64,000 nucleotides of DNA, taken from assembly GCF_029537235.1 (NCBI RefSeq), contig NZ_CP120638.1, positions 2,854,501 to 2,918,500 of the forward strand. Direction: 5' to 3'. Both the position numbers and the translations under genes were made by a program. The notes beneath the pieces were generated by a model. It had not been told where the DNA came from. It was given only the letters and a program-made list of their open reading frames with translations, and searched no databases. Shown here in pieces: positions 11,406 to 41,687 of this stretch; position 1 is the first letter of the stretch; each line of letters begins with the position of its first letter. This DNA comes from Rhizobium sp. 32-5/1. GTDB taxonomy: Bacteria; Pseudomonadota; Alphaproteobacteria; Rhizobiales; Rhizobiaceae.

Positions 11406-11556
11406 AACAAAAAGCTCCACGGTAAAAAATCTTGGTAGCCTTCTCGTAAATTATTGAAAACAAACAAAATTTCTTTTGGATCAATTCCGCATGCAGCGCG
11501 TTAACGATCGATTGCATGTCAAGAGGCACTATGAGCGTTACGATGGAGCGACGGTA

Positions 11557-11928: not shown

Positions 11929-11969
11929 AGACCCTGGCGGAAAGCGCTCTGCTTATCGCACAATTTTCG

Positions 11970-12008
11970 TATAATTCCCACTTTCTACCGACAGACATCA
12001 TTGTCTGT
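11970..12008 (+). promoter_or_regulatory. Promoter -10 box and perfect inverted repeat before the ArsR-type regulator
   Basis: TATAAT at 11970-11975 is a consensus -10 box. Sixteen bases on is the inverted repeat ACAGACA (11991-11997) / TGTCTGT (12002-12008), close to the expected transcript start. The position suits an autoregulatory operator, or a small hairpin in the leader. Confidence 0.45.
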
Positions 12009-12090
12009 GCCCGATTTTGTGGCCAAGCCTGCGATTGCTTCTTTGCCCGAATTGCTGATACTTATGAGCAATTATTGGTATGGTTGGAAG

Positions 12091-13011: not shown

Positions 13012-13029
13012 CGAGCCTGCGATACCCTC

Positions 13030-13098
13030 TTGACGAACGCGACTCCTCGGAGCTTATTATACCGTATAGACGGATACAAACCGGATAATACGATATAA
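13030..13098 (+). promoter_or_regulatory. Promoter/operator candidate of the arabinofuranosidase operon
   Basis: TTGACG at 13030-13035 and TATTAT at 13055-13060 form a possible promoter with long (19) spacing. Overlapping and following it are the palindrome ATACCGTAT (13059-13067) and the related ATACGATAT (13088-13096), one about 29 bases after the other, plus a CGGATA direct repeat (13071 and 13082). This layout suits binding by the regulator encoded just upstream. Confidence 0.4.
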
Positions 13099-13117
13099 AT
13101 AGTCGATGGGGAGGAGC

Positions 13118-14626
13118 ATGGAGGCTCGGGTAACAGCGCACGCGCGCTATATAATCGCGGATATTGACAAACGGCTGTACGGATCCTTCCTCGAACATCT
13201 TGGAAGAGCGGTCTACACCGGCATTTACGAACCGGGCCATTCGACTGCCGATGAAAACGGTATGCGTCGCGACGTGCTGGACCTGGTTCGCGGGCTCGAC
13301 ACGCCGGTCTGCCGTTATCCCGGAGGCAATTTCGTCTCTGCCTATAACTGGGAAGACGGCATCGGCCCAAAGAACGAGCGTCCCACCCGTCTTGATCTCG
13401 CCTGGCGAACGGCCGAGTCCAATCAGGTCGGCATCCACGAATTTGCGGATTGGGCGAAGGCTGCGGGCACGGATATGATGCTTGCCGTTAATCTCGGGTC
13501 CCGTGGTTTGGATGATGCCCGGAATTTCGTCGAATATGTCAATCATCCAGGTGGAAGCTACTGGTCCGACCTTCGCCGCAAGAACGGTCAGGCAGATCCC
13601 TGGAACGTCAAGCTCTGGTGCCTCGGCAATGAAATGGACGGCCCCTGGCAGGTCGGTCACAAAACGGCGGTCGAGTATGGCCATCTGGCGAACGAAACCG
13701 CCAAGGCGCTGCGCGCTTTCGACGAAAGTCTCGAGCTTGTGGTCTGTGGCTCGTCACATTCCGAAATGCCCACCTATCCCCAATGGGAAGCGACGGTGCT
13801 GGAAGAAACCTACGATCAGGTCGACTACATCTCGCTGCATATGTATTTTGAAAACTACGAGAAGAAGACCTCGGAATTTTTGGCGTTGCCCGAAAAGCTC
13901 GACCGCTATATCGGCACGGTCGGGGGCGTCATCGGCTATGTAAAGGCAAAGAAGCGCTCGAAGAAGGACGTTCGTATTTCCTTTGATGAGTGGAACGTAT
14001 GGTACCACGAGCGCCGCAGCGATGCGAAACGCATGAAGGAGTGGGATTGGCCGCATGCTCCGGTTTTGCTGGAGGACGTCTATAATTTTGAAGACGTGCT
14101 TCAGGTCGGCTGCATCCTCAATACATTTATCCGCCGGGCGGATGTCGTGCGCATCGCCTGCATAGCCCAGTTGGTCAATGTTATCGCACCGATCATGACG
14201 GAACCGGGTGGTGCCGCCTGGCGCCAGACAATCTACTACCCCTTTCAGTTTGCTTCGAACCATGGACGCGGCACTGCACTGCGCCTTGATGTCGATTGCG
14301 CCCACTACGATGCCGATATCGCCGCTGATGTCTCGTATCTAGACATCGCAGGGGTACATGACGGGGATGCCGGCACCCTCACCTTCTTTGCGATCAACCG
14401 CCATGGTGAGGAGCCCATGACGATCAATCTCTCCGTCGAAGGTTTCGGCAAGGCACGTGGCGTCGAGCACACGCTCATCAAACACGACAATCTTGAAGCC
14501 CGCAACACCAAGGAAGCGCCGGCTACTGTCGCTCCCGCAAAGGTTGACGGCGCCAGGATCTCGGAAAAGGGCGTTGAAGTCACCGTACCTCCATATTCCT
14601 ACTCAATGATCAGGATCACACTTTGA
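13118..14626 (+). CDS. abfA: GH51 alpha-L-arabinofuranosidase
   Basis: A 502-residue intracellular glycosidase of family GH51 that releases arabinose from the ends of arabino-oligosaccharides. The fold starts with YGSFLEHLGRAVYTGIYEPG; the catalytic acid/base is Glu about 172 in GNEMDG and the nucleophile is Glu about 291 in FDEWNVWY. There is no signal peptide, so short oligomers must be imported first, which fits the ABC transporter encoded next. I choose ATG 13118, which has GGGGAGGAG at 13108-13115, over the ATG at 13106 that lies within that ribosome site. The site matches eight of nine bases of the cuckoo RNA loop complement. Confidence 0.92.
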   Translation: MEARVTAHARYIIADIDKRLYGSFLEHLGRAVYTGIYEPGHSTADENGMRRDVLDLVRGLDTPVCRYPGGNFVSAYNWEDGIGPKNERPTRLDLAWRTAESNQVGIHEFADWAKAAGTDMMLAVNLGSRGLDDARNFVEYVNHPGGSYWSDLRRKNGQADPWNVKLWCLGNEMDGPWQVGHKTAVEYGHLANETAKALRAFDESLELVVCGSSHSEMPTYPQWEATVLEETYDQVDYISLHMYFENYEKKTSEFLALPEKLDRYIGTVGGVIGYVKAKKRSKKDVRISFDEWNVWYHERRSDAKRMKEWDWPHAPVLLEDVYNFEDVLQVGCILNTFIRRADVVRIACIAQLVNVIAPIMTEPGGAAWRQTIYYPFQFASNHGRGTALRLDVDCAHYDADIAADVSYLDIAGVHDGDAGTLTFFAINRHGEEPMTINLSVEGFGKARGVEHTLIKHDNLEARNTKEAPATVAPAKVDGARISEKGVEVTVPPYSYSMIRITL

Positions 14627-14684
14627 TTTGAAAATGAAAACATGTGAGCGGCGGGAGGCCGTGAACAAAAGGGAGGAGAATAAG

Positions 14685-15959
14685 ATGTCGAGATTACGGA
14701 ACTTTGCAAAGTGCATGCTACTGGCAACAGGGCTTTTCGCGTCGGCGGCCCAGGCGCAAGAAACTGTCGCCTGGTGGGATTTCCTGAGTGGCGGTGATGG
14801 TGTCCGCATGAAGCAGATGATCACCGATTTCAATGCTGCCCATGAAGGCAAGATCAAGATCGACGCGACGACGCTGGAATGGGGCACGCCCTTCTACTCG
14901 AAGGTGCAAACCTCCGCTTCTGTCGGCGAGGCGCCGGATATCATGACCTACCACGCAAGCCGCATTCCACTCGCGGTCAAGCAGGGCATTCTTCAGGAAA
15001 TTACCGCCGATGATTGGTCCAAGATGGGCCTTTCGAAGGATGATTATGCCGATGCCACCTGGAGCGCTGTGTCCGTGGATGACAAGCAATATGCAGTGCC
15101 CTTCGATACCCACCCGATTGTCCTCTACTATAACAAGGATGCGCTCGCCAAAGCTGGTCTGCTGACAGAGGATGGCAAGCCGAAAGGACTCGACAGTCGT
15201 GAGAACTTCGAGGCTACACTGAAGGGACTGAAGGCCGCAGGCGTGAAGTACCCGCTTGGCTCAGTGACGGCCGATGGCAACTTCATGTTCCGGACCATCT
15301 ACTCCTTCATGGGCCAGCAGGATGGGGAGCTTCTGACCGACGGCGAGTTCCTCGCCGGTAACAACGGCGAAAAGCTGCAGAACGTGCTTGCTCTCCTCCA
15401 GGGATGGACCAAGGACGGATTGCAATCCACCTATACCGATTACCCTGCGACGGTCGCGCTGTTTACCTCCGGTGAAGCGGCCATGATGATCAACGGTGTC
15501 TGGGAGGTGCCGACCATGGTCGATCTTCAGAAGCAGGGTAAACTGTTCGAGTGGGGCGCCGTCGAACTGCCGGTCCTCTTCAACCATGCCTCGACCTATG
15601 CGGACAGCCATGCTTTTGCCATTCCTGCCAACAAGGGCAAGGAGATGACCGCCGAGAAAAGGGCGGCTGTGCTTGAAGTCATTTCTTGGCTTTCCAAGAA
15701 CTCGCTCCATTGGGCCAGTGCCGGTCACATTCCTGCCTATGGTCCGGTGACGGCTTCGGCGGAATATAAGGCAATGGAGCCGAATGCGACATATTCCCCG
15801 CTGACGGCCAATATGATCTTCGATCCCAAGACGCCACTTGCCGGCGTTGCCGGGCCGATCTTCGACGTCATGTCTACCTACTTCGTTCCAACACTCAACA
15901 ACGAGATGGAGCCGGCCAAAGCCGTCGAGGAGATCAAGGCGGAACTGAACGATCTGTAA
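14685..15959 (+). CDS. Sugar ABC transporter substrate-binding protein (CUT1)
   Basis: A 424-residue periplasmic solute-binding protein of family 1. A classical signal peptide (MSRLRNFAKCMLLATGLFAS, then AQA) precedes the mature start ETVAWWDFLSGGDG. Family features include DIMTYHASRIPLAV near 85 and AAMMINGVWEVPTM near 270. GGGAGGAG at 14671-14678 fixes the start at 14685. It lies 58 bases after the arabinofuranosidase gene and before two permease genes, so its ligand is probably an arabinose-containing oligosaccharide. That assignment is inference from context. Confidence 0.9.
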   Translation: MSRLRNFAKCMLLATGLFASAAQAQETVAWWDFLSGGDGVRMKQMITDFNAAHEGKIKIDATTLEWGTPFYSKVQTSASVGEAPDIMTYHASRIPLAVKQGILQEITADDWSKMGLSKDDYADATWSAVSVDDKQYAVPFDTHPIVLYYNKDALAKAGLLTEDGKPKGLDSRENFEATLKGLKAAGVKYPLGSVTADGNFMFRTIYSFMGQQDGELLTDGEFLAGNNGEKLQNVLALLQGWTKDGLQSTYTDYPATVALFTSGEAAMMINGVWEVPTMVDLQKQGKLFEWGAVELPVLFNHASTYADSHAFAIPANKGKEMTAEKRAAVLEVISWLSKNSLHWASAGHIPAYGPVTASAEYKAMEPNATYSPLTANMIFDPKTPLAGVAGPIFDVMSTYFVPTLNNEMEPAKAVEEIKAELNDL

Positions 15960-16049
15960 TCCTCCCACGCATGGCCGCAGCAAAGTGCTGCGGCCATGCG
16001 TGCCGCGCCATCGGGCCGCGTTATCGGAATGACGGGAGATTGCGACGCC

Positions 16050-16933
16050 ATGCTCAGGAACAAACGAAGTGAGACCTGGATCGCCGCTGCGCTGGTGGCG
16101 CCCTTCTTGGCGATCTACGGTCTCGTTTTCATCTATCCGACGATCAAGCTCTTCATGATTAGCTTTACCGATGCGCCGCTGATCGGCAGCGGCGCCTATG
16201 TCGGCTTTGAAAACTATACGCGTCTGTGGGGCGAACGACGCTTCAATGTCGCACTGTGGAACACCGCCTATTTTGTCATCCTGACAGTCGTGCCAGGTAC
16301 GTTCGCGGCTTTCGCCATTGCGCTCGGTATTAACCGCCTTGCCGGCCGACTGCAGACGTTCGTGCTGGCGCTGTTCTTCCTGCCCTACATCCTGCCCGTG
16401 TCGGTCGTTTACCTGGTCTGGGACTGGACGCTCAATTTTCAGTTCGGAATCGCGATGCATATCTTTGACATGCTGGGTATGAACCGGGTGCCGGTGTTCA
16501 AGTCAACGACCTGGTTCATGCCCGCCGTCGCCTTCATCACGATCTGGTGGACCGCAGGCTTCTCCATCCTTCTCTTTCTTGCGGGCCTGCGAGCGATTCC
16601 GGCCGAAATCTATGAGGCAGCTGCGCTCGACAATGCGCGGCGCTGGGCCACTTTCCGCCGGATCACTTGGCCATTGATGTGGCCGGTCACGGCTCTCGTA
16701 TTGACTATCCAGTTGATCCTGCAACTGAAAATCTTCGATCAGGTCTACCTTTTTCAACAGGTGGACGACCCAACGATAACCTTGTTCTCGTTTACTACGT
16801 CTTCCAGCGTGCATTTCAATCCGACCAGGGCGGCCGCGCGGCGGCGGCGGCAGTCGTGCTATTTCTGATCGTCATTGTCGTTTCGGTGATCAACTTTCAG
16901 CTCACACGGCTTTCAAAAGGAGGTGCGCGATGA
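16050..16933 (+). CDS. Sugar ABC transporter permease, MalF-type, frameshifted
   Basis: An inner-membrane permease with six predicted helices and the ATPase-docking EAA motif (IYEAAALDNARRWATF). The frame breaks in a five-T run at 16750-16754; one added T continues as FSTGGRPNDNLVLVYYVFQR, the conserved GGP-N region of CUT1 permeases, and gives 294 residues. The stop overlaps the next permease start as ATGA. I take ATG 16050, with GGGAG at 16034-16038; ATG 16029 is an alternative. Together with the following gene it forms the channel of the arabinoside importer. Confidence 0.88.
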
Positions 16934-17772
16934 CTCCAGCCACGGCCCAGCGGCTCAATATGGCCGGCCTTGCCATCACGCTCACCACGGTCCTGTTTGC
17001 AGTGCTCTGGGCATTTCCCCTTTACTGGGGCGTGGTCTCTTCGTTGAAGCCGGAAGACGAAGTGGTCCGTCCTTATATCGAGTTGTGGCCGGATACATTC
17101 ACGATCTCTCACTATGTCTTCGCCCTGACGCAGACGCAGATCGGTACATGGTATCTAAACTCGATCGCAACCGCACTGGCGATTACTGTACTCACCGTCT
17201 CCTCTTCGCTGCTGTGCGGCTACGCGATCTCGCAACTCGAATTCCGATTCCGGCGACCGCTCTGGTGGCTGATCCTGGCGAGCTTCATGGTCCCGATGCA
17301 AACCATGATCGTCAACCATTTCGAACTCGTCGCTAGTCTCGGGTTACTCAACACCTGGGCTGGTATAGTGCTGCCGCAACTGATCCATCCGGTCATCATT
17401 ATCGTCTACAAGCAATTCTTCGACGGGGTTCCGAAAGACTTTCGCGAAGCTGCCGTAATGGACAATGCCTCGGAATGGCGCATTCTCACGCGGGTTTACA
17501 TGCCGATGAACTGGGGAGTGACCACGGCGCTCGCGATCGTCACCTTTATTTGGTCCTGGAATGCCTTCCTCTGGCCGTTCTTGGCTGTGACGCAGACCGA
17601 CATGATGACGATCACTGTTGGCATTACGCAGGTCAACGACGCCTTCGGGGTCTACTATGCCCGTCAGCTTTCCGCAGCCGTGCTCGCCGGCTTGCCGGTC
17701 GCCATCGCCTATCTCGTGTTCCAACGACGCGTAACCGAAGCCATTACATTGTCTGCCGGTATCAAGGGATGA
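16930..17772 (+). CDS. Sugar ABC transporter permease, MalG-type
   Basis: A 280-residue CUT1 permease with six hydrophobic segments and an EAA loop (FREAAVMDNASEWRILTRVYMP near 173-194). The start overlaps the preceding permease stop (ATGA). It completes the membrane part of the arabinoside importer. No ATPase gene follows on this strand; the candidate ATPase gene is convergent, just downstream. Confidence 0.92.
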   Translation: MTPATAQRLNMAGLAITLTTVLFAVLWAFPLYWGVVSSLKPEDEVVRPYIELWPDTFTISHYVFALTQTQIGTWYLNSIATALAITVLTVSSSLLCGYAISQLEFRFRRPLWWLILASFMVPMQTMIVNHFELVASLGLLNTWAGIVLPQLIHPVIIIVYKQFFDGVPKDFREAAVMDNASEWRILTRVYMPMNWGVTTALAIVTFIWSWNAFLWPFLAVTQTDMMTITVGITQVNDAFGVYYARQLSAAVLAGLPVAIAYLVFQRRVTEAITLSAGIKG

Positions 17773-17776
17773 GGTA

Positions 17777-17806
17777 GAGGAGGGGATTGCGGCAGATCCC
17801 TCCTTG
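17777..17806. terminator. Bidirectional hairpin between permease and ATPase genes
   Basis: AGGAGGG-GAT and ATC-CCTCCT pair around a short loop between two convergent genes, giving a strong stem on both strands. There is no long T run, so termination strength is uncertain. Confidence 0.5.
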
Positions 17807-17817
17807 GCTTTAGCCCT

Positions 17818-18891
17818 TCACTGCATGTGATGGGCCTTCCCGTCCCGATCGAAAAGATGGACGGCACTTGTGTCGAAAGCAATGAACACGGTTTCGCCAG
17901 GCTGGACTGCGCAGCGTCCGCCATCCTGGGCGATCACCTCAGTGCCATCGTTCAAGGTGCAGTAGAGCAGCGTACGATCACCGAGCCGCTCGACCACCCC
18001 GACCTTGGCCGGACTGCCCTGCGCGCTGGCGTCTTCACCTTCCAAGACCCGCACGGCTTCCGGCCTGATCCCGAGCTCATAGCGACCTGGGGCGGACAGC
18101 GACGGGGCGACTTGTAATTCGGCCCCGTCTCCCAGCCGCAACTGTCCTCCGGGCAGAAGCTCCACGGGCAGAAAATTCATCGCCGGACTGCCGACGAAGC
18201 CCGCGACAAAACGGGAAGCTGGTTTGAGGTAAACCTCCATCGGCGTGCCGATCTGTTCTATCCGGCAGTTGTTGAGGACGACGATCCTGTCGGCGAGTGT
18301 CATAGCCTCGGTCTGGTCGTGGGTGACGTAAATCATCGTCGACTTCATACGCTGATGAAGCTGCGCCAGCTCGACGCGGGTGCGCACCCTTAGCGCCGCA
18401 TCAAGATTGGAAAGGGGTTCATCAAAAGAAACGCCTTGGGGTCTTTGACAATGGCCCGGCCGATCGCAACGCGCTGCCGCTGCCCACCCGAAAGTTGGGC
18501 AGGGCGTCGTGCAAGAAGCTCGTCCATCTCCAGCATCCTTGCCGCTTCGGCAACGCGCAAGTCGATGTCCTTTTCCGGCATGCCGACATTTCGCAAACCG
18601 AAAGCCATGTTCTCCTTGACTGTCATGTGCGGATAAAGAGCGTAGTTCTGGAAGACCATAGCCACACCGCGCTGGCCCGGTGCAAGCGTTTCACTGCGCA
18701 CCCCCGATACTCAGTGCGCCGCTGGTGATTGCCTCCAGCCCTGCAATCATCCGTAACAGGGTCGATTTGCCAGAACCCGAGGGACCAAGAAAGACCATGA
18801 ACTCCCCTGACCTGACGGTCAGCGATATGTCCTCGATGACTTTGACGCTGCCAAAGTATTTGGAAACATTCTCAAGTTTGATCTCTGCCAT
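17818..18891 (-). CDS. Sugar ABC transporter ATP-binding protein (UgpC/MsmX type), frameshifted twice
   Basis: Cytosolic ATPase of a CUT1 importer. The order is normal: Walker [10 protein letters not shown] near 37-45, Q-loop [14 protein letters not shown], signature [14 protein letters not shown], Walker B region, H-loop [10 protein letters not shown], then a C-terminal TOBE/MalK-like regulatory domain. Two shifts split it: in a C5 run at 18701-18705 and in an A4 run at 18424-18427, where one more base restores [12 protein letters not shown]. The corrected length is about 357 residues. It is transcribed toward the arabinoside permeases rather than with them. Its pairing with that transporter is likely but inferred; such ATPases can serve several importers. 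Confidence 0.85.
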
Positions 18892-28966: not shown

Positions 28967-29608
28967 ATGCTCGCCGATACGACCGGCTCCTGGACGCCCG
29001 TCGCCCTTTCCGCGGATTTGCCGGCTGGAACCGTTAATCCTGCCCGTATTGCAACCGAATCGATCGCTCTTTGGCGCAGCGATTCCGGGCGTGTTGCAGC
29101 ATCCGCAGATCGCTGTCCGCATCGGGGCATGCGTTTGTCCCACGGGTTCGTGCGGGGTGAGGCGATCTCCTGTATTTATCACGGCTGGAGCTATGCGCAG
29201 GCTGGCAACTGTCTTCGCATCCCGGCCCATCCGGGACTGGTGCCGCCGGAAACGATCCGCGTGGTGACCCATGCTGTCGAGGAAGCAGATGGTGTGATCT
29301 GGGTGGCCTTCGGTACACCAGCTTCCATTCCGCCAAAGCTCGACGGTTTTGTTCCGCTGCGTTCCCTGACCATTCTCGCGATGACAGCACAGATAGAAGC
29401 GGCTGCTGGTGCGGTGGCAAATTCGGAGGGACTGATCGAGAGCGGTACCATTCGCCTGCTTTTGTCCACCCAGCACGAGGGCGAGACGTTGGTCCATGTC
29501 CTAGTAAAAGATGATGCCGATGTTGCAACCCGCATTACTGCATCGCGCACCGCGGAAAATCTGCGTCGGACGGCTGAAGATCTTCAAGGCAAGGGAAGCG
29601 TGCAATGA
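28967..29608 (+). CDS. Rieske [2Fe-2S] domain protein
   Basis: A 213-residue soluble protein. Residues 8-110 form a Rieske domain with complete cluster ligands: Cys50 and His52 in CPHRG, Cys69 and His72 in CIYHGW. This spacing is typical of ring-hydroxylating oxygenases. The remaining 100 residues lack the mononuclear-iron catalytic motif; they look like a truncated helix-grip remnant. The next gene, coupled by ATGA, encodes the catalytic half without a Rieske centre. The pair therefore looks like a Rieske oxygenase divided over two polypeptides. ATG 28967 has GGAAAG at good spacing; a longer form from 28952 is possible. Confidence 0.85.
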   Translation: MLADTTGSWTPVALSADLPAGTVNPARIATESIALWRSDSGRVAASADRCPHRGMRLSHGFVRGEAISCIYHGWSYAQAGNCLRIPAHPGLVPPETIRVVTHAVEEADGVIWVAFGTPASIPPKLDGFVPLRSLTILAMTAQIEAAAGAVANSEGLIESGTIRLLLSTQHEGETLVHVLVKDDADVATRITASRTAENLRRTAEDLQGKGSVQ

Positions 29609-30450
29609 CCATGCAGGCGATGATCGACGAATGGTACCCGGTCGGCCTCATCAGCCAGCTCGATGCTGGCGGCCGCAGGACGGCGCTGATGGGCGAGCCT
29701 ATCTTGGTGGCGAGCGACATTGACGGCAAAGCGAAAGTGACAGGCGGAAATGGCCGGATCCTGCCCGTGCGCCTGCGCTACGGCCATGTCTGGTCATCGC
29801 TGGGTGATCCCAAGAACGAGCTTTTCCCGATCCCGGAGGCAGATCAGCCGGGTCGCCGTTTTGTCGATGTCGGCGTCGTGCGCGTGCGCTGCTCGCCGCT
29901 TCGCGCGGTAGAGAACTTTCTCGACATCGCCCATTTCCCCTTTGTGCATACCGATATTCTCGGCGCCGAGCCGCATACGGAGGTCCAGAATTACAAGGTC
30001 GAGATTCGCGAGGACGTGGACGAGGTCTGGGCGACACAGGTGAAATTCTACCAGCCGCAGGCCGCAAAGTCCGCCAGCGGGGGCATTACGACCGAATACA
30101 TGTACCGCGTGCCGGCGCCGACCTGCTCGGTTCTCTACAAGACCTGCCCGCCGCGCCCGAGCGAATGGGATGTGATCACGCTGTTCGTACAGCCGCTTGC
30201 GGAGGATATCTGCGATGTCTGGCCATGGATGGCGCTGTTCGATGACGAGACCTCGCTGACCGACCTCATCCATTTCCAGCAGACGATCTTCCTCCAGGAC
30301 CGCTCGATCCTCGAAAACCAAATTCCGCGATTGCTTCCGCTCGATCCGGGCATGGAAATACCGACGCGGGCCGATCTGACGTCGATTGCCTATCGCCGCT
30401 GGCTGAAGCGCCACAACTATACCTATGGTGCACAATTGGTGGCGCAATGA
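29605..30450 (+). CDS. Rieske-oxygenase catalytic subunit lacking the Rieske centre (NdmC-like)
   Basis: A 281-residue protein. The catalytic domain has the mononuclear iron site D107-x2-H110-x4-H115 in ENFLDIAHFPFVH and a likely third ligand Asp near 233 in FLQDRSILENQ, as in the vanillate-demethylase group. The amino-terminal 90 residues occupy the place of a Rieske domain but contain neither CxH nor CxxH. In Pseudomonas putida CBB5 the caffeine-pathway subunit NdmC likewise lacks a Rieske cluster, gets electrons from an extra Rieske domain on NdmD, and needs the GST-like NdmE. Here both a Rieske protein and a GST-like protein are encoded on either side with ATGA overlaps. A purine-type substrate is inferred from context. 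Confidence 0.82.
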   Translation: MTMQAMIDEWYPVGLISQLDAGGRRTALMGEPILVASDIDGKAKVTGGNGRILPVRLRYGHVWSSLGDPKNELFPIPEADQPGRRFVDVGVVRVRCSPLRAVENFLDIAHFPFVHTDILGAEPHTEVQNYKVEIREDVDEVWATQVKFYQPQAAKSASGGITTEYMYRVPAPTCSVLYKTCPPRPSEWDVITLFVQPLAEDICDVWPWMALFDDETSLTDLIHFQQTIFLQDRSILENQIPRLLPLDPGMEIPTRADLTSIAYRRWLKRHNYTYGAQLVAQ

Positions 30451-31106
30451 AGCTTTACGACTACATCCTCTCGCCCAGCGGCTACAAGGTCCGCCTGATG
30501 GCCGCACTGATCGGCGTCAAGCTTGAACTCCGACCCGTCGATTTCCATCCGGGGCTCGAACATCGCAGCCCGGAACTTCTGTCTCTAAATCCCGCCGGCT
30601 CGATCCCGATCCTCGAGGACGGCGATCTGATCCTGACCGAATCCTCGGCCATTCTCGTCTATCTCGCAGCAAAGGCCGCCCCGAAATGGCTGGCTGGCGA
30701 AAAGCCTGAGGAAGCCGCCCGGGTGCAGCAATGGCTCTCCTTTTCCGGCCGCCTCACGGCCAGTCTCGGCGCCGCTCGATTGCATGAAATGCTGCTGCGT
30801 CCCGGCGATATCGCGGCGTTGCAGGCGCAAGGAATGGCCGCCCTTCGCGAGCTTGAAGCGGGCCTCGTCGAGCAGCGGCTGCGCGGCATGCGCTTTCTGG
30901 CCGCCGACCGGCCGACAGTGGCCGATATCGCCTGTTTTCCCTATGTGGCGCTGGCCCCTGATGGCGGCGTCTTGCTCGATGCCTATCCCACAATCCGGCT
31001 CTGGTCGCGGGCGCTTCGCAGCCTCGATGGTTTCATCGAAATGCCTGGCATCCACCGACTGCATGAATTGAAGCCCGAACCGCAAATCGAACCGGGCGAG
31101 GCCTAA
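30447..31106 (+). CDS. Glutathione S-transferase-like protein (possible NdmE-type scaffold)
   Basis: A 219-residue protein with an amino-terminal thioredoxin-like GST domain (MKLYDYILSPSGYKVRLMAA, cis-proline in NPAGSIPILEDGD, TESSAILVYLA) and an all-helical C-terminal half (FLAADRPTVADIACFPYV). The catalytic Ser/Cys position holds Ser in LSPSG. It overlaps the oxygenase gene by four bases and ends one base before the deaminase gene. In the NdmCDE demethylase a GST-like protein is a structural partner of the Rieske-less subunit; by analogy this may be a scaffold rather than a detoxifying transferase. Glutathione-dependent catalysis is not excluded. Confidence 0.85.
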   Translation: MKLYDYILSPSGYKVRLMAALIGVKLELRPVDFHPGLEHRSPELLSLNPAGSIPILEDGDLILTESSAILVYLAAKAAPKWLAGEKPEEAARVQQWLSFSGRLTASLGAARLHEMLLRPGDIAALQAQGMAALRELEAGLVEQRLRGMRFLAADRPTVADIACFPYVALAPDGGVLLDAYPTIRLWSRALRSLDGFIEMPGIHRLHELKPEPQIEPGEA

Positions 31107-31107
31107 G

Positions 31108-32487
31108 ATGACCGGTTATCTCCTGAAGAACTGCGCGGCTGTGATCACTGACGAGGGCAGGGGCCCGGTCGTGCATCGCAATGTCGATCTCCTGACCAGC
31201 GGCCCCGCGATCCAGGCCATCGGCGAACATCTCGATGCAGACGGCATGCCGGCCGGCACGACCGTGCAGGACGCAACCGGCTGGTTCGTCTATCCCGGCC
31301 TCGTCAACACCCACCATCACTTCTTCCAGTGCTTCGTGCGCAACCGCGCCGATCTCGACTGGACGAAGCTTTCGGTCATTGAATGGCTGGATCGAATCTA
31401 CCCGATCTTCTCGCAGCTCAATGAGGAATGTTTCTACCATTCCTCGGTCACGGCGATGGCAGAACTGATCAAGCATGGCTGTACCACGGCCTTCGACCAC
31501 CAGTATAATTTTCCCCGGCACGCCGGAAAGCGGCTGATCGACCGGCAGTTCGAGGCGGCCGAGCTTCTCGGCATGCGTTTCCATGCCGGTCGCGGCGGCA
31601 ACACACTGCCGAAGTCGGAGGGGTCCACAATCCCCGACGCGATGCTGGAGACGACGGACGAGTTCATCGGCGACTGCGCCCGCCTGATCGACACCTATCA
31701 CGACACCAGCCCTTTCAGCATGCGGCAGGTTGTGGTCGCACCGTGCCAGCCGGTGAATTGCTACCGCGAGACCTTCGTGGAATCCGTGGCGCTGGCGCGC
31801 GATCGCGGCGTCATGATGCACACCCATGTCGGCGAGGGCGAAAGCCCTGTCATTCTGGCGCGTCATGGCAAACGCACCGTCGATTATCTCGAGGAACTGG
31901 GCTTTGCCGGGCCCGATGCCTTCTACGCCCATTGCTGGGAACTGACCCATGACGAACTGCGGACGATGGCTAAGAGCGGTACCGGCGTATCGCATTGCCC
32001 GGAGCCGGTTTATCTCGTCGGCGCCGAGGTCACGGACATACCCGCGATGGCGGCCTTCGGGTTGCGCGTTGGCCTCGGCTGCGATGGCGCGGCATCCAAC
32101 GACAATTCAAACCTGATGCACTGCCTGCATTCGGCCTACATGCTGCAATGCCTCGTGTCCTCCACCCGCGCCCATCCGGTGCCGCCGCCTGTCGATTTCC
32201 TCGGCTATGGCACCACAGGCGGCGCGAGCCTGCTTGGCCGTTCCGACATCGGACGGCTTGCGCCCGGCATGGCGGCCGATCTGTTTGCGATCGATACGCG
32301 CCGCATGGATTATGTCGGCACGCGCCACGATCCGCTGAGCCTGATTGCGCGCGTCGGCATCGGCATGGCGACCGACATGACCATGATCAACGGGCGTATT
32401 GTCTGGCAGAAGGGCGAGTTCATCGGGCTCGACGAAGCCAAACTGTCTGCCGATGCCGAAGCTGCACTTGCCACCGTCGAATTCTAA
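31108..32487 (+). CDS. Amidohydrolase, 8-oxoguanine deaminase-like
   Basis: A 459-residue zinc amidohydrolase of the cytosine-deaminase/AtzA-TrzN group. Metal and catalytic blocks are complete: GLVNTHHHFFQ near 67-77, HTHVGEGE near 234-241, AHCWELT, and GCDGAASND near 323-331. These blocks, with LDWTKLSVIEWL, match 8-oxoguanine deaminases that yield urate; guanine or S-triazine derivatives are alternative substrates. It is translated right after the GST-like gene and before a BMP-type importer for purine/nucleoside-like compounds, which supports a purine-derivative pathway. The precise base cannot be read from the sequence. Confidence 0.85.
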   Translation: MTGYLLKNCAAVITDEGRGPVVHRNVDLLTSGPAIQAIGEHLDADGMPAGTTVQDATGWFVYPGLVNTHHHFFQCFVRNRADLDWTKLSVIEWLDRIYPIFSQLNEECFYHSSVTAMAELIKHGCTTAFDHQYNFPRHAGKRLIDRQFEAAELLGMRFHAGRGGNTLPKSEGSTIPDAMLETTDEFIGDCARLIDTYHDTSPFSMRQVVVAPCQPVNCYRETFVESVALARDRGVMMHTHVGEGESPVILARHGKRTVDYLEELGFAGPDAFYAHCWELTHDELRTMAKSGTGVSHCPEPVYLVGAEVTDIPAMAAFGLRVGLGCDGAASNDNSNLMHCLHSAYMLQCLVSSTRAHPVPPPVDFLGYGTTGGASLLGRSDIGRLAPGMAADLFAIDTRRMDYVGTRHDPLSLIARVGIGMATDMTMINGRIVWQKGEFIGLDEAKLSADAEAALATVEF

Positions 32488-32513: not shown

Positions 32514-33611
32514 ATGACAAAACTAACTCGTAGAAACCTGATGAAAGCCGCTGCCGCCACCGGACTTGCCGGCGCGCTTAGCAGCCGCATGACGTTTGCC
32601 GCCGACGAGCCCTTGGGCATCACGCTGGTGATCCCGTCGCCGGTCGGCGATGTCGGCTGGGGGCATGCGCTTGCCGCTGGTCTCGAGCCGATCAAGGCCG
32701 CTTACGGCGACAAGGTGAAAATCACCATCCTCGAGAATATCGCGGAAGGTCCGGACGCTGATCGCATCATGACCAAGACGGTCGCCGACGGAAACAAGTT
32801 CCTCGTCGCCGGCTCCTTCGGCTACCAGAACGGCGCACTGCAGATTGCCCGCCGTGATCCGAGCGTCACCGTTCTGCATGCCTCCGGCTTCCAGGTTGCG
32901 CCGAATTTCTCGCCGTTTGCCGCCAAGTATTTCCAGGGCACCTATCTGCTCGGGATGGCTGCTGCGGCCCTGTCCAAGACCGGCAAGCTGGGTTCGGTCT
33001 CGGCCTTCGCCATCCCCGAACTGATCACCTCCATCAACGCGTTCACGCTTGGCGCCCAGACCGTCAATCCGGATATCGAAGTTTCCGTTGTCTGGGTGAA
33101 TTCCTGGTTCGATCCGGCCAAGGAGCAGGAAGCTGCCAAAGCGCTGATCGCCCAGAAATGCGACGTGATCTTCTCCAATGCACAGGATACGCCGTCTGTC
33201 ATCGCGGCTTGCGAGGAGGCGGGCGTCTACTCGTTCAACCTCAACTCTTCGATGAAGAAATATGCCGAGAAGACCTATCTCGGTTGCGTCGCAACCGACT
33301 GGTCGCCGTTCTTCAAGGCATCGGTCGATGCCCATCTCGCCGGAACGTTCAAGGGCGCTAACGCTTTCCTCGGCGTCGCGGAAAACGTGGTCGAAGTGGT
33401 CGACTGGAACCCGGCCGTCCCGGCTGACACCATGACCAAGATCAAGGAGATCGAGGCCAAGATCGCCGATGGCAGCTTCTCGCCGTTCACCGGGCCGATC
33501 ATGAAGGCTGATGGCAGCGAGGGCGTCGCATCCGGCGTGACCTTGGCTGATCCAGAGATCATCGCCATGGACTGGCACGTCAAGGGCGTCGCGACGCCGC
33601 TGCCGAAGTAA
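32514..33611 (+). CDS. BMP-family ABC transporter substrate-binding protein
   Basis: A 365-residue periplasmic binding protein of the BMP/PnrA-Med family. The amino terminus TRRNLMKAAAATGLAGALS followed by TFA resembles a Tat signal (twin arginine at 5-6). Mature features are VGDVGWGHALAAG, FGYQNGALQIAR, and a YLGCVATDWSPF block. Characterised BMP proteins bind nucleosides, purines or riboflavin. A simple GAGGGAACTG site precedes ATG 32514. With the three genes after it, this makes a complete importer feeding the oxygenase/deaminase enzymes upstream. Confidence 0.9.
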   Translation: MTKLTRRNLMKAAAATGLAGALSSRMTFAADEPLGITLVIPSPVGDVGWGHALAAGLEPIKAAYGDKVKITILENIAEGPDADRIMTKTVADGNKFLVAGSFGYQNGALQIARRDPSVTVLHASGFQVAPNFSPFAAKYFQGTYLLGMAAAALSKTGKLGSVSAFAIPELITSINAFTLGAQTVNPDIEVSVVWVNSWFDPAKEQEAAKALIAQKCDVIFSNAQDTPSVIAACEEAGVYSFNLNSSMKKYAEKTYLGCVATDWSPFFKASVDAHLAGTFKGANAFLGVAENVVEVVDWNPAVPADTMTKIKEIEAKIADGSFSPFTGPIMKADGSEGVASGVTLADPEIIAMDWHVKGVATPLPK

Positions 33612-33614
33612 GCC

Positions 33615-35137
33615 ATGAACACCCCGCTCCTGTCGCTGCGCGGCATTTCGAAGAGCTACGGCCAGATCCACGCCAACCAGGCGATCGATCTGGACGTGGC
33701 TGCGCAATCGATCCATGCGATCCTCGGCGAAAACGGGGCGGGAAAATCGACGCTGATGAAGCTGATCTATGGCGTCGAGCAACCGGATGACGGAACCGTC
33801 ATCTGGGAAGGACAAGACTTGCGCCTTGCTTCCCCGCGGAAGCCAGGCGCAAGGGTATCGGCATGGTCTTCCAGCATTTCTCGCTGTTCGAGACCCTGAC
33901 GGTGCTGGAAAACATCCGACTGGTCGTGCCGGGCCGGAAAGCTGATCTTGCGCAGCGCATCAAGACGTTGGGACAGGAGTTCGGCCTCGAAGTCGATCCG
34001 TTCGCCCATGTGCATGCTTTGTCTGTCGGTGAGCGACAGCGGGTGGAGATCATCCGGTGCCTGATGACCAACCCGAAGCTTCTGATCCTTGACGAGCCGA
34101 CCTCCGTCCTGCCCCCGCAACTGGTGGAGAAGCTGTTTGAGACCCTGCGCCGCCTGCGCGATGGGGGTGTTTCCATCCTTTTGATTTCCCATAAGCTGGA
34201 GGAAATCCGGGCGATCTGCGATCGGGCCACGATCCTGCGCAGCGGGCGCGTCACCGGCGATGTCGATCCGCGCGACCACGATACCCACGATCTCGCCCGC
34301 ATGATGATCGGTCGCGACATGCCGGCGCCGATCCCGGCGGTTCCCCTGTCCGGCGGCGAAAAATGCCTGGAGATCATCGGTCTGGATCACCAGCCGGACG
34401 ATCCCTTCGCCGTGTCGCTGTCCGGTATCACCCTTGAGGTTCGCGCCTGCGAAATACTGGGGATCGCAGGAATATCCGGAAATGGCCAGAGTGAGCTTGC
34501 GGCGCTGATTTCGGGCGAGACTTTGCTTGGGCGCGAGCAGCGCGACCGGATCTACATGATGGGGTCGGATGTCGGCAGGCTCGATGCCGCGGCGCGGCGA
34601 AAGCTCGGCTTTGCCTTCGTGCCGGAAGATCGACTTGGGCGAGGCGCTGTGCCCGAAATGTCGCTTGTCCTCAATAGCCTGCTGACGGCCCATCCGCTCG
34701 ATCTTCTGCGGCACGGCCTTGTCGACAGGAAACGCGCCATGGCGTTCACCGATGACTGTATCCGTCAATACGATGTCCGCACGCCCGGTCCCGATGCCGA
34801 AGCGGGAACCCTGTCCGGCGGAAATCTGCAGAAATTCATCGTCGGTCGGGAAATCATGCTGTCGCCGAAGCTTCTGTTCGTCGCGCAACCGACCTGGGGT
34901 GTCGATATAGGGGCCGCGACCGCGATCCGCAGCCGGCTGGTGGCCTTGCGCAACGAGGGCATGGCCATCCTCGTTATTTCCGAGGAACTGGAAGAACTGT
35001 TCGAACTGAGCGATTCCATCCAGGTGCTGCATCACGGGACGCTCAGCCAGCGGCTCGTCACACGCGATACTGAGCCGGAGGAAATTGGCCGCTACATGAT
35101 CGGGGCGCAACATTCGGCCGGGGACATTCACGCATGA
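33615..35137 (+). CDS. ABC transporter ATPase with two nucleotide-binding domains, frameshifted
   Basis: A fused double ATPase of the sugar/nucleoside type. The first domain has Walker A GENGAGKST near 39-47, a signature-like LSVGERQRVEIIRC and Walker B LLILDEPTSVL. The second has a degenerate Walker A (GISGNGQSELA) and signature LSGGNLQKFIVGRE, normal for this class. One G is missing near 33836; replacing it gives SPAEARRKGIGMVFQHFSL and a 507-residue protein. In the second domain the Walker B region reads LLFVAQPTWGVD, with Gln-Pro in place of Glu-Pro, as often seen in BMP-type systems. The stop overlaps the permease start (ATGA). Confidence 0.87.
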
Positions 35138-36246
35138 GCGGCGGATTTGTGGCTTCCTTTCCCTCTCTGGTCCGCCGGGAGCGCGCCTCGCTCGTAGCGA
35201 CCTTCATTGCGCCGGCCGTTGCGCTTGTGGTCGCCCTCGTCCTCAATCTCAGTCTCTATCTGCTGATGGGCCGAGATCCCGTTGCTGTCCTCTATGCGAT
35301 GCTGCTGGAACCCTTCCTCTCCTGGGCATCGTTTTCTGAAGTGCTCTTAAAGGCAGGGCCGCTACTCCTCATCGCGCAGGGGCTTGCGATCGGCTTTCGC
35401 GCCAAGGTCTTCAACATCGGCGCCGAGGGCCAGTTCATTCTCGGGGCGATCTTCGCCTCGGCCATTCCGGTCTGGTTTCCGCAGGCGACGGGCCAGTGGA
35501 TCTGGCCGGCCATGCTCCTGCTCGGCGCGATCGGCGGCGCGCTCTGGGCGTCGCTGACGGCATTCTGGCGGGTGCGGCTCAATGCCAACGAGATCCTGGT
35601 TTCGCTGATGCTCAGTCTCGTTGCGGCTCAACTCCTGAACTACCTGCTGCTCGGTCCGTGGAAGGACCCGAACGGTTTCAATTTTCCGCAATCGGTGATG
35701 TTTCAGTACGACGCCATGGTGCCGACCCTGATTGCCGGAACCCGCCTCAACGTCTCGTTCCTGATCACGCTCGTCCTTTCGCTTGCGGCCTTCGTCTTCA
35801 TGCAGAAGAGCTTCAGTGGCTACAAGCTGCAGGTCGGTGGTCTGGCACCCCGGGCGGCAGGTTATGCGGGCTTCAAAGAAGGTTGGACGATTTGGCTTTC
35901 GCTTCTGATCGGCGGCTTTGCGGCCGGTCTTGCCGGGGCGGCGGAAGTTGCCGGGCCGCTTGGGCAATTGCAGCGCTCTATCTCCAGCGGCTATGGCTAT
36001 GCTGCCATCATCGTTGCGTATCTCGGTGGTCTGCATCCGATCGGCATCGTCGTCTCGGCGCTGGTCATGGCGGTCATCTATATCGGTGGCGACAATGCGA
36101 TGGTTTCGGCCAACCTGCCCATCGCCGCGGTTCGCGTCTTTCAGGGCAGCCTGCTGCTCAGCTATCTCATCGCCGTGGCCTTCGTCCGCTATCGCCTAGA
36201 ATGGCCGAAAACCGCCAGAAGAGCCGCCTCCCGGAGCCCGTCATGA
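35134..36246 (+). CDS. ABC transporter permease, BMP system (first)
   Basis: A 370-residue inner-membrane permease of the BPD_transp_2 (RbsC/LivH-like) superfamily, with about nine hydrophobic segments. Family phrases are FRAKVFNIGAEGQFILGAI near 87-105 and NEILVSLMLSLVAAQLLNY near 151-169. It is coupled to the ATPase gene by ATGA and to the next permease by a four-base overlap. The pair forms the heterodimeric channel of the importer for a nucleoside or purine-like substrate. Confidence 0.9.
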   Translation: MSGGFVASFPSLVRRERASLVATFIAPAVALVVALVLNLSLYLLMGRDPVAVLYAMLLEPFLSWASFSEVLLKAGPLLLIAQGLAIGFRAKVFNIGAEGQFILGAIFASAIPVWFPQATGQWIWPAMLLLGAIGGALWASLTAFWRVRLNANEILVSLMLSLVAAQLLNYLLLGPWKDPNGFNFPQSVMFQYDAMVPTLIAGTRLNVSFLITLVLSLAAFVFMQKSFSGYKLQVGGLAPRAAGYAGFKEGWTIWLSLLIGGFAAGLAGAAEVAGPLGQLQRSISSGYGYAAIIVAYLGGLHPIGIVVSALVMAVIYIGGDNAMVSANLPIAAVRVFQGSLLLSYLIAVAFVRYRLEWPKTARRAASRSPS

Positions 36247-37154
36247 ACGCAATCGAGTTCATCATCGCCGGCATGCTGGCTGCTGCAACACCGTTTCTCC
36301 TTGCTGCTCTCGGCGAACTGGTGGTGGAGCGCGCCGGTGTCCTCAATCTCGGGGTCGAGGGGCTGATGGCGCTTGGCGCCGTCCTCGCTTTCATCGTCGT
36401 CTATCAAGGCGGCGGGCATTTTCTCGGTTTTGTAGCGGCCGGCCTGGGCAGCGCCGCCCTGTCGTTGATCTTTGCCTTCGTTACGCTCGGGTTCCGGGCA
36501 AACCAGGTGGCGGCGGGTCTTGCTATCGGCATTCTGGGGCAGGGGCTTTCAGCACTTTTCGGCAAGACCTACGAAAGCCTGACGGTCAAGGCACTTCCCC
36601 GGCTTTCCGTGCCGGGTCTTTCAGAGATCCCTGTTGTCGGCGGTCTTTTCGTTCAGGATATCGTGGTGTGGATCTCGCTTGTAGCGACCTTCGCCATCTG
36701 GGCGATGTTTGCCTATTCGAAACTCGGCCTCGTGATCCGCGCCGTCGGCGAAAACCCGAAGGCTGCGCACGCCATCGGCTATTCGGTCATCACTGTCCGT
36801 GTGCTTGCCATTGCCTTTGGCGGCGCCATGGCCGGCTTTGCCGGCGCCTATGCGGCCGTCATCTATACGCCGCTCTGGGCCGATGGGATGATTGCTGGGC
36901 GTGGCTGGATCGCCATCGCCCTCGTCGTCTTCGGCACATGGCTGACCGGTCGCATCTTCCTCGGCGCCTGCCTTTTCGGCGCGGTATCGCTGATGGGGCT
37001 GGCCGCCCAGGCGACCGGCCTGGACGTGCCCTCGCAATTGCTGTCAAGCCTGCCCTATCTCGTGACGATCATCGTGCTTGGTATTATTTCTGCAGACCGT
37101 CGCCTTTTGAAACTCAACGGCGTTGCCTCCCTCGGCGAACCATTCGAGCGATAA
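36243..37154 (+). CDS. ABC transporter permease, BMP system (second)
   Basis: A 303-residue permease of the same superfamily: ALGELVVERAGVLNLGVEGLMALGA near 21-45, FRANQVAAGLAIG near 83, then VGENPKAAHAIGYSV near 163. About eight membrane helices. ATG 36243 overlaps the first permease's stop. It is the last gene of the operon that begins with the Rieske protein gene. No terminator with a T run was recognised in the 198 bases before the convergent AraC-type gene. Confidence 0.9.
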   Translation: MNAIEFIIAGMLAAATPFLLAALGELVVERAGVLNLGVEGLMALGAVLAFIVVYQGGGHFLGFVAAGLGSAALSLIFAFVTLGFRANQVAAGLAIGILGQGLSALFGKTYESLTVKALPRLSVPGLSEIPVVGGLFVQDIVVWISLVATFAIWAMFAYSKLGLVIRAVGENPKAAHAIGYSVITVRVLAIAFGGAMAGFAGAYAAVIYTPLWADGMIAGRGWIAIALVVFGTWLTGRIFLGACLFGAVSLMGLAAQATGLDVPSQLLSSLPYLVTIIVLGIISADRRLLKLNGVASLGEPFER

Positions 37155-39350: not shown

Positions 39351-40538
39351 ATGACACTGCATGATCCCATCGTCATTGTCGGTTCCGCCCGCACCGCCAT
39401 TGGCGGATTTCAGGGCGACCTGAAGGATATGACCGCGCCCGAGCTTGGAGCTGCCGCCATCCGCGGCGCCCTTGAGCGGAGTAGCGTCACCTCTGATATG
39501 GTCGAGGAAGTCGTGTTCGGCTGCGTGCTGCCGGCCGGACAAGGGCAGGCACCGGCGCGTCAGGCGGCTATCGGCGCAGGTCTGCCGTTCTCAACGGGGG
39601 CCAGCACCGTCAACAAGATGTGCGGCTCCGGCATGAAAGCGGTGATGGTGGCGCATGACCTGATTCTGGCCGGCAGCGCGAACATTGCCGTCGCTGGCGG
39701 CATGGAAAGCATGAGCAACGCTCCCTATCTGCTCGATCGGGCCCGTGGCGGTTACCGGCTCGGCCATGGCAGGATCATCGACCACATGTTCCTCGACGGG
39801 CTGGAGGATGCCTATGACAAGGGGCGGCTGATGGGAACATTCGCCGAGGATTGCGCCGAAGCCTATCAATTCACCCGCCCCGCCCAGGACGATTTCGCGG
39901 TGACATCGCTGAACCGCGCGCAGAAGGCGATCCGTGAGGGCTTTTTCGATACCGAGATTACGCCCGTCACGGTGAAAACGGACAAGACCGAACACGTCGT
40001 CAGTCGCGACGAACAGCCGGGCAAGGCAAGGCTTGAAAAGATTCCGACCTTGAAACCGGCCTTCCGCGAAAACGGTACGGTGACCGCCGCCAATGCCAGC
40101 TCAATTTCCGACGGTGCGGCAGCCCTGGTTCTGATGCGTCGCTCCGAAGCCGAGCGTCGCGGCCTTGCGCCGCTTGCCACCATCGTTGGCCACTCGACTC
40201 ATGCGCAGGCACCCAATCTCTTCGCGACCGCGCCGATCGGTGCGCTGAAAAAGCTCAGCGCGCGAACAGGGTGGGCGCTGCAAGATGTCGATCTGTTCGA
40301 AATCAATGAGGCTTTCGCCGTCGTCGCCATGGCGGCGATGCGCGATCTCGACCTGCCGCATGACGCCGTGAACGTGCATGGCGGCGCCTGTGCGCTCGGT
40401 CACCCGATCGGCGCATCCGGCGCCCGCGTCATCGTCACATTGTTGGCAGCCCTTGAGCGTTACGATCTAAAGCGCGGCATGGCAACGCTGTGCATCGGTG
40501 GCGGCGAGGCGACGGCCATCGCGGTCGAACGGCACTAA
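39351..40538 (+). CDS. Acetyl-CoA C-acyltransferase (thiolase)
   Basis: A 395-residue thiolase. The acylated cysteine is in VNKMCGSGMKAV near 88; the C-terminal catalytic residues are in NEAFAVVAM, NVHGGACALGHPIGASGAR (His) and TLCIGGGEA (Cys is replaced by the usual C-x-G arrangement). The family includes acetoacetyl-CoA thiolase; in this operon cleavage of 2-methylacetoacetyl-CoA to propionyl-CoA and acetyl-CoA is the expected step. GGGAGG lies before the ATG, 22 bases after the SDR gene. Confidence 0.92.
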   Translation: MTLHDPIVIVGSARTAIGGFQGDLKDMTAPELGAAAIRGALERSSVTSDMVEEVVFGCVLPAGQGQAPARQAAIGAGLPFSTGASTVNKMCGSGMKAVMVAHDLILAGSANIAVAGGMESMSNAPYLLDRARGGYRLGHGRIIDHMFLDGLEDAYDKGRLMGTFAEDCAEAYQFTRPAQDDFAVTSLNRAQKAIREGFFDTEITPVTVKTDKTEHVVSRDEQPGKARLEKIPTLKPAFRENGTVTAANASSISDGAAALVLMRRSEAERRGLAPLATIVGHSTHAQAPNLFATAPIGALKKLSARTGWALQDVDLFEINEAFAVVAMAAMRDLDLPHDAVNVHGGACALGHPIGASGARVIVTLLAALERYDLKRGMATLCIGGGEATAIAVERH

Positions 40539-40561
40539 CGGCTTTTGGGAGGAGGCCGCCT

Positions 40562-41687
40562 ATGATCCTGAGTGAACAGCAGATCCAGATCCGCGACATG
40601 GCCCGCGATTTCGCCCGGGAGCGCCTAGCGCTGGGTGCTGCCGAGCGTGACATCTCGCATGCGTTCCCGAAAGACGAACTGAGGGAAATGGGCGAACTCG
40701 GCTTTCTCGGCATGCTGGTGCCGGAGGCCTATGGTGGTTCGGAGACGGGCACCGTTGCCTATGCCGTGGCGCTCGAGGAAATTGCCGCCGGCGACGGTTC
40801 GTGCTCGACCATCATGAGCGTGCACAGTTCGGTCGGCTGCGTGCCCATCCTGAAATTCGGCACCGAGGAGCAGAAGCAGCGCTTCCTGCCCAAACTGGCC
40901 TCCGGCGAGTGGATCGGCGGTTTCGCGCTGACGGAGCCGCAAGCCGGTTCCGATGCGTCCAACCTGCGCACCCGCGCCCGGCGCGACGGCAGCGACTATG
41001 TGCTTGATGGCGCAAAGCAGTTCATCACCTCCGGCAAGAACGGCAATGTCATCATCGTCTTCGCCGTCACCGATCCGGATGCCGGCAAAAGGGTATTTCC
41101 GCGTTCATCGTGCCGACGGATACCCCCGGTTACGAGGTTGTTCGCGTGGAAAAGAAGCTCGGCCTGCATTCCTCCGATACCTGCCAGATCGCCTTTACCA
41201 ATATGCGTATTCCGGCCGATCTGCGGCTGGGAGGGAAGGCGAGGGCTACAGGATCGCGCTCGCCAATCTCGAAGGCGGGCGCATCGGCATTGCCGCGCAG
41301 TCGGTCGGCATGGCCCGGGCGGCTTTCGAGGCGGCACGCGACTATGCCCGAGAACGCATTGCTTTCGGCAAGCCGATCATCGAGCATCAGGCCGTGGCTT
41401 TTCGCCTTGCCGATATGGCAACGCAGATCGAGGTGGCACGGCAGATGGTGCTGCATGCCGCCGAACTGAAGGAGGTTGGCCAGCCTTGCCTGACGGAAGC
41501 TTCGATGGCCAAGCTATTTGCTTCGGAAATGGCGGAAAAAGTCTGCTCCGATGCGATCCAGATCCATGGCGGATATGGCTATATGTCGGATTACCCGGTC
41601 GAGCGCATCTATCGCGACGTTCGCATCTGCCAGATTTACGAGGGAACAAGCGACGTGCAACGCATCGTCATTGCACGTAGTCTGTAG
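40562..41687 (+). CDS. Acyl-CoA dehydrogenase (short/branched-chain type), frameshifted twice
   Basis: Flavoprotein that introduces the alpha-beta double bond into acyl-CoA. Features are [15 protein letters not shown] near 120-134, [32 protein letters not shown], and a C-terminal [19 protein letters not shown] with YEGTSDVQ, which carries the catalytic Glu. Two one-base losses, in an A4 run at 41087-41090 and a G3 run at 41233-41235, split it; restoring both gives 375 residues, the family norm. The ribosome site at 40547-40555 is GGGAGGAGG, the exact complement of the cuckoo RNA loop. Isobutyryl-CoA or 2-methylbutyryl-CoA is the likely substrate from context. Confidence 0.87.

Follow-up and report, generated by a model that had tools for sequence, protein, structure and literature searches.

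The window analysed here is a stretch of 64,000 nucleotides from Rhizobium sp. 32-5/1 (contig NZ_CP120638.1, positions 2,854,501 to 2,918,500), and our subject is a block of three consecutive genes within it, A, B and C (Table 1), whose products resemble the separated parts of a Rieske-type oxygenase accompanied by a protein of the glutathione S-transferase (GST) type. A central feature of Rieske oxygenases is the matching of one subunit's Rieske cluster to another's catalytic iron, both cofactors being normally carried on one chain. A preliminary description of the locus had likened the three proteins to the NdmCDE N7-demethylase of Pseudomonas putida CBB5; its account of three genes joined by ATGA overlaps was confirmed at both junctions, A–B and B–C, and at the positions given in Table 1.

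Sites for the Rieske cluster and the catalytic iron on separate proteins

Conservation was assessed in two collections that overlap partly, some genomes being present in both. The first comprises alignments of 67 B proteins (from which the B of locus L064 was dropped, its frame running into the GST gene) and of 48 Rieske-bearing sequences, namely A proteins not fused to a reductase (free A) and the N-termini of NdmD-type proteins. The second comprises the best 80 of at least 545 relatives found in a scan of named genomes, which are close relatives of the window type and mostly come from Rhizobiales or Rhodobacterales by title; its B alignment has 80 rows, the window plus 79, the broken frame of L156 having been left out.

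Residues 8–89 of protein A match the Pfam family Rieske (E 5e-21), with no other Pfam family above cut-off. The [2Fe-2S] ligands C50, H52, C69 and H72 are invariant in 48/48 rows, and the Rieske motif recurs in the A proteins of all 80 kept relatives, which are uniformly small (195–252 amino acids, aa) and in every case without the D-x2-H-x4-H motif of the catalytic site. The earlier statements that A has full Rieske ligands and no catalytic site, and that this Rieske donor is a small protein of its own, are thereby borne out; A ends at residue 213. The resemblance of A to oxygenases extends beyond the cluster domain: a multiple alignment shows it colinear with NdmD-type reductases to about residue 230, positions 4–211 of the A profile are matched within the fused protein of one genome (G164), and positions 6–124 align to residues 10–130 of SxtT. 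The structural model of A (predicted local distance difference test score, pLDDT, 94.9) superposes on SxtT and GxtA chains with template modelling (TM) scores of 0.72–0.80 normalised to A, which exceeds what the Rieske part alone, about 54% of the length, should give. The roughly 90 residues that follow the Rieske domain are thus probably, on the strength of this model, a reduced catalytic domain; given their alignment with NdmD and their fit to the oxygenase fold, we set aside the reading of A as a mere Rieske ferredoxin.

Protein B presents the complementary picture. It matches Pfam VanA_C, the catalytic domain of vanillate-demethylase-type oxygenases (E 2.6e-18), and gives no match to Pfam Rieske; the CxH...CxxH motif is absent from all B proteins of both sets (0/67 and 0/79), and D107, H110, H115 and D232 are invariant (67/67 and 80/80 rows). 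The bridge between subunits of a Rieske oxygenase is made by the Asp of the D-x2-H-x4-H motif. With D107 in this position, the iron ligands should by the family rule be H110, H115 and D232. The preliminary description was therefore right that B keeps an iron site and has lost its Rieske ligands, and needs correction in counting D107 among the iron ligands and in omitting D232. The refuting case it had named, a Rieske cluster bound by the second protein, does not arise from the sequences, B being without cluster ligands. Compared with SxtT and GxtA, the B profile aligns weakly over residues 3–46 and strongly over 102–333, skipping 47–101, the 55-residue segment that holds the cluster. Judged by sequence, B is an oxygenase without a cluster-binding segment that has kept part of the Rieske-domain scaffold, and its model also fits SxtT and GxtA chains best (TM 0.78–0.85). 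Among solved structures, these intact alpha3 enzymes (PDB 6WN3 and 6WNC) come closest to A and to B alike, in profile as well as in fold; unlike the window proteins, they hold both cofactors on one polypeptide. Neither A, which has only the cluster site, nor B, which has only the iron site, unites the ligands expected of a canonical alpha subunit.

With only one of its family's two cofactor sites left, B might be a pseudo-enzyme or a regulatory protein, the operon then being devoid of oxygenase chemistry. We regard this as very improbable given the invariance of its four active-site residues; moreover, according to a passage in a 2015 review, CBB5 NdmC belongs together with NdmD and NdmE to an active N7-demethylase (PMC4408171). 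The split could also be a frameshift or assembly artefact in one ordinary Rieske oxygenase gene, as this assembly does contain broken frames nearby, in an ATP-binding cassette (ABC) ATPase gene at about 33863 and an acyl-CoA dehydrogenase gene at about 40950. Relatives, however, keep two genes of similar length, with B in a single frame in 79/80 loci (broken in L156), and adjoining genes overlap by four bases in 68/79 loci between A and B and in 70/79 between B and the GST gene. Since both frames and overlaps are conserved, chance or artefact is excluded; in addition, each of the two proteins spans the Rieske-domain scaffold, which marks A and B as separate genes rather than the halves of one frame.

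Protein C matches GST_N (E 2e-16), as had been proposed for the third gene, and is 41% identical over 205 residues to the GST of an NdmCDE-type cluster on a P. putida plasmid, placing it with GST homologues of the NdmE type. Residues 9–13 of C (within window 30447–30500) read SPSGY; in 63/128 GST rows, compared by position and not by alignment, these residues read SPSCY, and the twelve variants listed for them do not include SPSGY.

Gene arrangements, NdmCDE-type clusters and protein y

The NdmCDE comparison, made with the P. putida plasmid cluster and not with the CBB5 sequences themselves, proved right in kind. Besides the likeness of C, B is 44% identical over 271 residues to the NdmC-type protein and A is 43% identical over 105 residues, in its Rieske part, to the NdmD-type protein. 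The window shares with NdmCDE a catalytic subunit without Rieske ligands, a Rieske domain supplied by another protein, and a GST-like partner. It differs in that its Rieske domain is a free protein that stops short of any reductase, in the lack of a linked NdmD-like reductase, and in the presence within the operon of an acylphosphatase-like protein (y), a BMP-type ABC importer and an amidohydrolase resembling 8-oxoguanine deaminase. Clusters that combine a Rieske-less subunit, a Rieske-reductase fusion (585–588 aa) and a GST were found on plasmids of P. putida, Klebsiella pneumoniae, Sinorhizobium meliloti (pSymA) and Mesorhizobium; their B and GST families are those of the window, and no match to y was found in the four stretches. 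The S. meliloti cluster resembles the window in having a BMP-type importer and also holds two Rieske-less B genes and a GntR regulator. In the P. putida cluster (L031, 2551–13374, on a plasmid typed as conjugative) the neighbours include hpxO, another Rieske oxygenase, a TIM-barrel protein and proteins with 2-oxoglutarate oxygenase domains. A section of the 2015 review records ndmCDE homologues of unknown function in 18 other organisms, most of them Sinorhizobium and Mesorhizobium (PMC4408171).

The three-gene linkage, which the preliminary description regarded as refutable if confined to this genome, is widespread: all 80 kept relatives have A, B and GST genes in that order. Of 199 genomes surveyed within the family to which the window belongs, 53 have B matches (E<=0.001; the weakest are partial and resemble ordinary Rieske oxygenases), including each of the 31 genomes with free A. 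Ten of these 31 combine a single A with two B genes, an arrangement that had been missed. The A profile separates free A (31 genomes, at least 187 bits) from the N-termini of fused NdmD-type proteins (13 genomes, at most 138 bits), one genome (G160) having both. Beyond the family, 7/384 other genomes in a sample of the class match the B profile at E<=1e-60 (six candidates scored per genome), and 306 of 72,556 plasmid records match at E<=1e-5; identity is at least 80% in 123 of these and under 60% in 181, the latter including other oxygenases. The family recurs in rhizobia and Rhodobacterales, and in the records inspected its genes bear no more than generic Rieske, GST and acylphosphatase annotations.

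Detailed maps of 49 loci (the window and L031–L078) revealed several arrangements. Seventeen are of the window type, with A, B, GST, amidohydrolase and importer genes in succession (some ended by contig ends), and 14 carry the fused NdmD type. A further 14 keep y, A and GST together and place B in a separate unit within 20 kb. Two bridge-type loci (L069 and L075) have A, B and GST followed by a gene that matches NdmD from residue 291 or 303 to 588; the remaining two are an A-B-GST locus with divergent y (L065) and a B gene without A (L036). Trees resolve the Rieske-less B proteins, free A and the fused NdmD N-termini as three groups and leave the order, fused first or free first, unsettled, several outgroup branches being very long. 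A Leptolyngbya boryana plasmid (L177, 3701–4675) carries, directly after a BMP-type ABC importer, an intact Rieske oxygenase that shares 36% identity with B across 80% of B and by its sequence is a possible unsplit counterpart in a cyanobacterium.

The gene upstream of A encodes the small protein y, which the preliminary description had overlooked. The y family profile matches solved acylphosphatases (PF00708) over nearly its full length (Table 1). At the columns that we take to be those of the catalytic Arg and Asn, placed in y through profile alignments, R is found in only 4/110 rows and N is not among the eight commonest residues; y thus combines the acylphosphatase family match with loss of both catalytic residues. 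It lies upstream of A in 78/80 kept loci and adjoins A in all 17 window-type loci except L040 and L048, whereas in the bridge-type loci it is found on the far side of the importer genes. In the 199 genomes, a strong y match (at least 68 bits, the next best being 44) occurs in 30 of the 31 with free A, G011 being the exception, and in none of the 168 others (Fisher p 9e-35, uncorrected for relatedness); free A spans 20 genera and y 19. Among the 13 genomes with fused NdmD, strong y is confined to G160, which also has free A. On this co-occurrence, y is found with free A and not with fused NdmD. These counts come from scoring the best first-look candidates of each genome, 25 for y and 15 for A, so that a missing match is not proof of absence, and the y scores are in part in-sample, since some of the loci behind the profile belong to the same or near-identical genomes; the co-occurrence is carried by the gap between 68 and 44 bits.

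From its sequence associations, y probably serves as an additional subunit for assembly or docking where A and its reductase are not fused. The other way to read it, as a hitchhiker unrelated to the oxygenase, for instance a relative of metabolic acylphosphatases, appears less likely, though it has points in its favour: y is 100–200 bases away from A in most loci, is missing near A in two of the kept loci (L096 and L127), and can be unlinked, as in genome G113, where an orphan y (L180, 9940–10203, contig C24) sits among genes unrelated to the block and A-B-GST is on another contig. The y of the window scores, taken singly, 15.3 bits against a Pfam cut-off of 22.5. Set against the hitchhiker reading are the confinement of strong y to free-A genomes across 19 genera, a four-base overlap of y with A in 7/32 loci examined, and the lost catalytic residues, which speak against a metabolic acylphosphatase. 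Among open-licence papers we found none linking a Rieske oxygenase with an acylphosphatase, a weak indication of absence.

Electron supply and the proposed assembly

The preliminary description saw no reductase gene nearby, and we agree: no reductase of the NdmD or L069 type, the only two query types used, was found in the window operon or in the block of the 80 relatives, some of whose loci end early. On the opposite strand, one locus (L166) shows a reductase-like match that is partial, and in another (L139) a weak match lies outside the block. Its further suggestion, that the electron route would be new, is not supported, as in L069 and L075 the operon includes a separate gene for the reductase half of NdmD. 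The L069 reductase (320 aa) has NAD-binding and [2Fe-2S] ferredoxin domains above the Pfam cut-off and a flavin-domain match below it. Because bridge-type operons hold the two halves of NdmD as two genes, this analogy suggests that A may be reduced by an L069-type reductase. Genome-wide, an NdmD-like reductase half was matched at E<=1e-40 in 18 of the 31 free-A genomes and not in the other 13, and its presence does not track free A. In the genome studied here, the best match to the NdmD reductase half (35–36% identity) lies about 0.9 Mb away (L084, 7271–12590, on contig C1 at about 3.79 Mb), in a cluster that from its translations we take to be dimethylamine-monooxygenase-like; we rejected it as a dedicated partner since it is not specific to the free-A system. 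A route from NADH through an unlinked reductase to the Rieske protein is the simpler reading, and this route need not be new in kind. A passage in PMC12445004 states that terminal oxygenases of two-component systems often accept non-native reductases.

We posit, with a probability of roughly three in four, a hetero-oligomeric Rieske-type oxygenase of the NdmCDE kind made up of A, B and C, with the Rieske module as a subunit of its own and the reductase encoded elsewhere. The complementary loss of sites in A and B, their homology and that of C to the NdmD N-terminus, NdmC and NdmE, the conserved gene block and the occurrence of y with free A are features of the sequences themselves; complex formation, the electron path, the role of y and the substrate are what we infer. 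In the proposed mechanism, an NADH-dependent reductase encoded elsewhere would reduce the [2Fe-2S] cluster of A, which would occupy the place of the neighbouring subunit's Rieske half in an ordinary trimer. A cluster histidine of A would meet Asp107 of B and pass electrons to Fe(II) held by H110, H115 and D232, where O2 would be activated on the substrate. The GST-like C may serve as a non-catalytic assembly partner, as proposed for NdmE, and y, a dead acylphosphatase fold, may assemble or dock free A.

Several observations weigh against this assembly. In the 14 mapped loci where the donor stands apart, A and B belong to different transcription units; A could instead be an independent Rieske ferredoxin or a decayed oxygenase serving another enzyme, B receiving its electrons from some other protein. 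This seems improbable to us in view of the A–B overlaps noted above, the homology of A to a module fused to a reductase beside NdmC-like genes, and the B match in each free-A genome. Further points on the adverse side are the lack of a linked NdmD-like reductase in the window and in the block of the 80 relatives, the 13 free-A genomes in which no NdmD-like reductase half was matched, the imperfect attachment of y to A and its low score when taken singly, a substrate suggested by neighbouring genes only, and the B model, which is confident elsewhere but uncertain (pLDDT <50) at residues 112–124 and 152–157, the former at the iron site.

The split of the NdmCDE type is known from caffeine-degrading bacteria; what appears to be new is the free Rieske donor with its conserved pseudo-acylphosphatase and, in some genomes, two catalytic partners. 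The free-donor form was not found described in the open-licence literature, which is weak evidence of absence. More tentatively, free A could be an exchangeable electron-delivery subunit, held by the GST-fold and dead acylphosphatase-fold proteins, powering two or more different B proteins and fed by a general reductase; the Rieske oxygenase alpha subunit would then have turned into a plug-in, four-protein assembly, and we found no description of one. With cluster and iron on two small proteins, the inter-subunit electron step becomes directly testable by mixing purified parts, and one donor could be paired with two different catalytic subunits. The structure of the NdmCDE complex is called unsolved in part of a 2026 paper (PMC13237722), and these shorter stand-alone parts may be easier structural targets.

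Neighbouring genes and the likely substrate

The genes downstream of C are listed with the rest of the locus in Table 1. The amidohydrolase scores 366.7 bits against NCBIfam PRK08203, below the equivalog cut-off of 532, and is accordingly 8-oxoguanine-deaminase-like without assignment to that equivalog; its nearest solved relative is PDB 7ww2 (E 3.2e-83). Related clusters contain guanine-deaminase-like genes, one (L053) has a gene that we read as adenine-deaminase-like, and most include a BMP-type importer. Because of this neighbourhood of amidohydrolase, deaminase-like and importer genes, our best guess for the substrate is a modified purine, and the free-donor family may more generally handle such compounds. 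The purine would be imported by the BMP-type ABC importer, oxidised by N-demethylation or hydroxylation, and then deaminated by the amidohydrolase. A BMP-family protein is mentioned in a section of PMC4993760 and could not be tied to this locus.

Table 1. Features of the oxygenase locus and adjoining genes, in window coordinates.
Feature	Position	Strand	Basis
y, acylphosphatase-fold protein, 89 aa	28532..28801	+	profile against solved acylphosphatases, E 1e-6
A, putative free-standing Rieske donor, 213 aa, ATG 28967 to TGA	28967..29608	+	Pfam Rieske
A codons 50–72, [2Fe-2S] ligands C50/H52/C69/H72	29114..29182	+	48/48 rows; motif in 80/80 loci
B, NdmC-like mononuclear-iron oxygenase subunit, 281 aa, ATG 29605 to TGA	29605..30450	+	Pfam VanA_C
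B D107 (bridging Asp by family rule), H110 and H115 (iron ligands)	29923..29949	+	67/67 and 80/80 rows
B D232, third iron ligand by family rule	30298..30300	+	67/67 and 80/80 rows
C (C/E), NdmE-like GST-fold protein, 219 aa, ATG 30447 to TAA	30447..31106	+	GST_N
Amidohydrolase nearest 8-oxoguanine deaminase	31108..32487	+	NCBIfam PRK08203, PDB 7ww2
BMP-family substrate-binding protein of ABC importer	32514..33611	+	R. johnstonii pRL10 orthologue; start 32514 is our reading, translated from 32502
ABC ATPase, frame broken at about 33863–33899 in this assembly	33615..35137	+	single frame in relatives
ABC permease 1	35134..36246	+	
ABC permease 2	36243..37154	+	91% to R. johnstonii permease

In the L053 locus (8870–18389) the donor-apart operon y-A-GST is followed by further genes and then by a second B gene; from their translations we take the further genes to encode an adenine deaminase, a LysR regulator, a sulfopyruvate/phosphonopyruvate-decarboxylase-like pair, a GMC oxidoreductase and an amidohydrolase. 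The ABC ATPase of the window is read in two overlapping frames near 33863–33899, and relatives have a single gene of about 505–507 aa; the break is probably an assembly error or a decayed gene. An acyl-CoA dehydrogenase gene farther downstream (window 40490–41687) is apparently split over two frames near 40953, which again suggests assembly indels.

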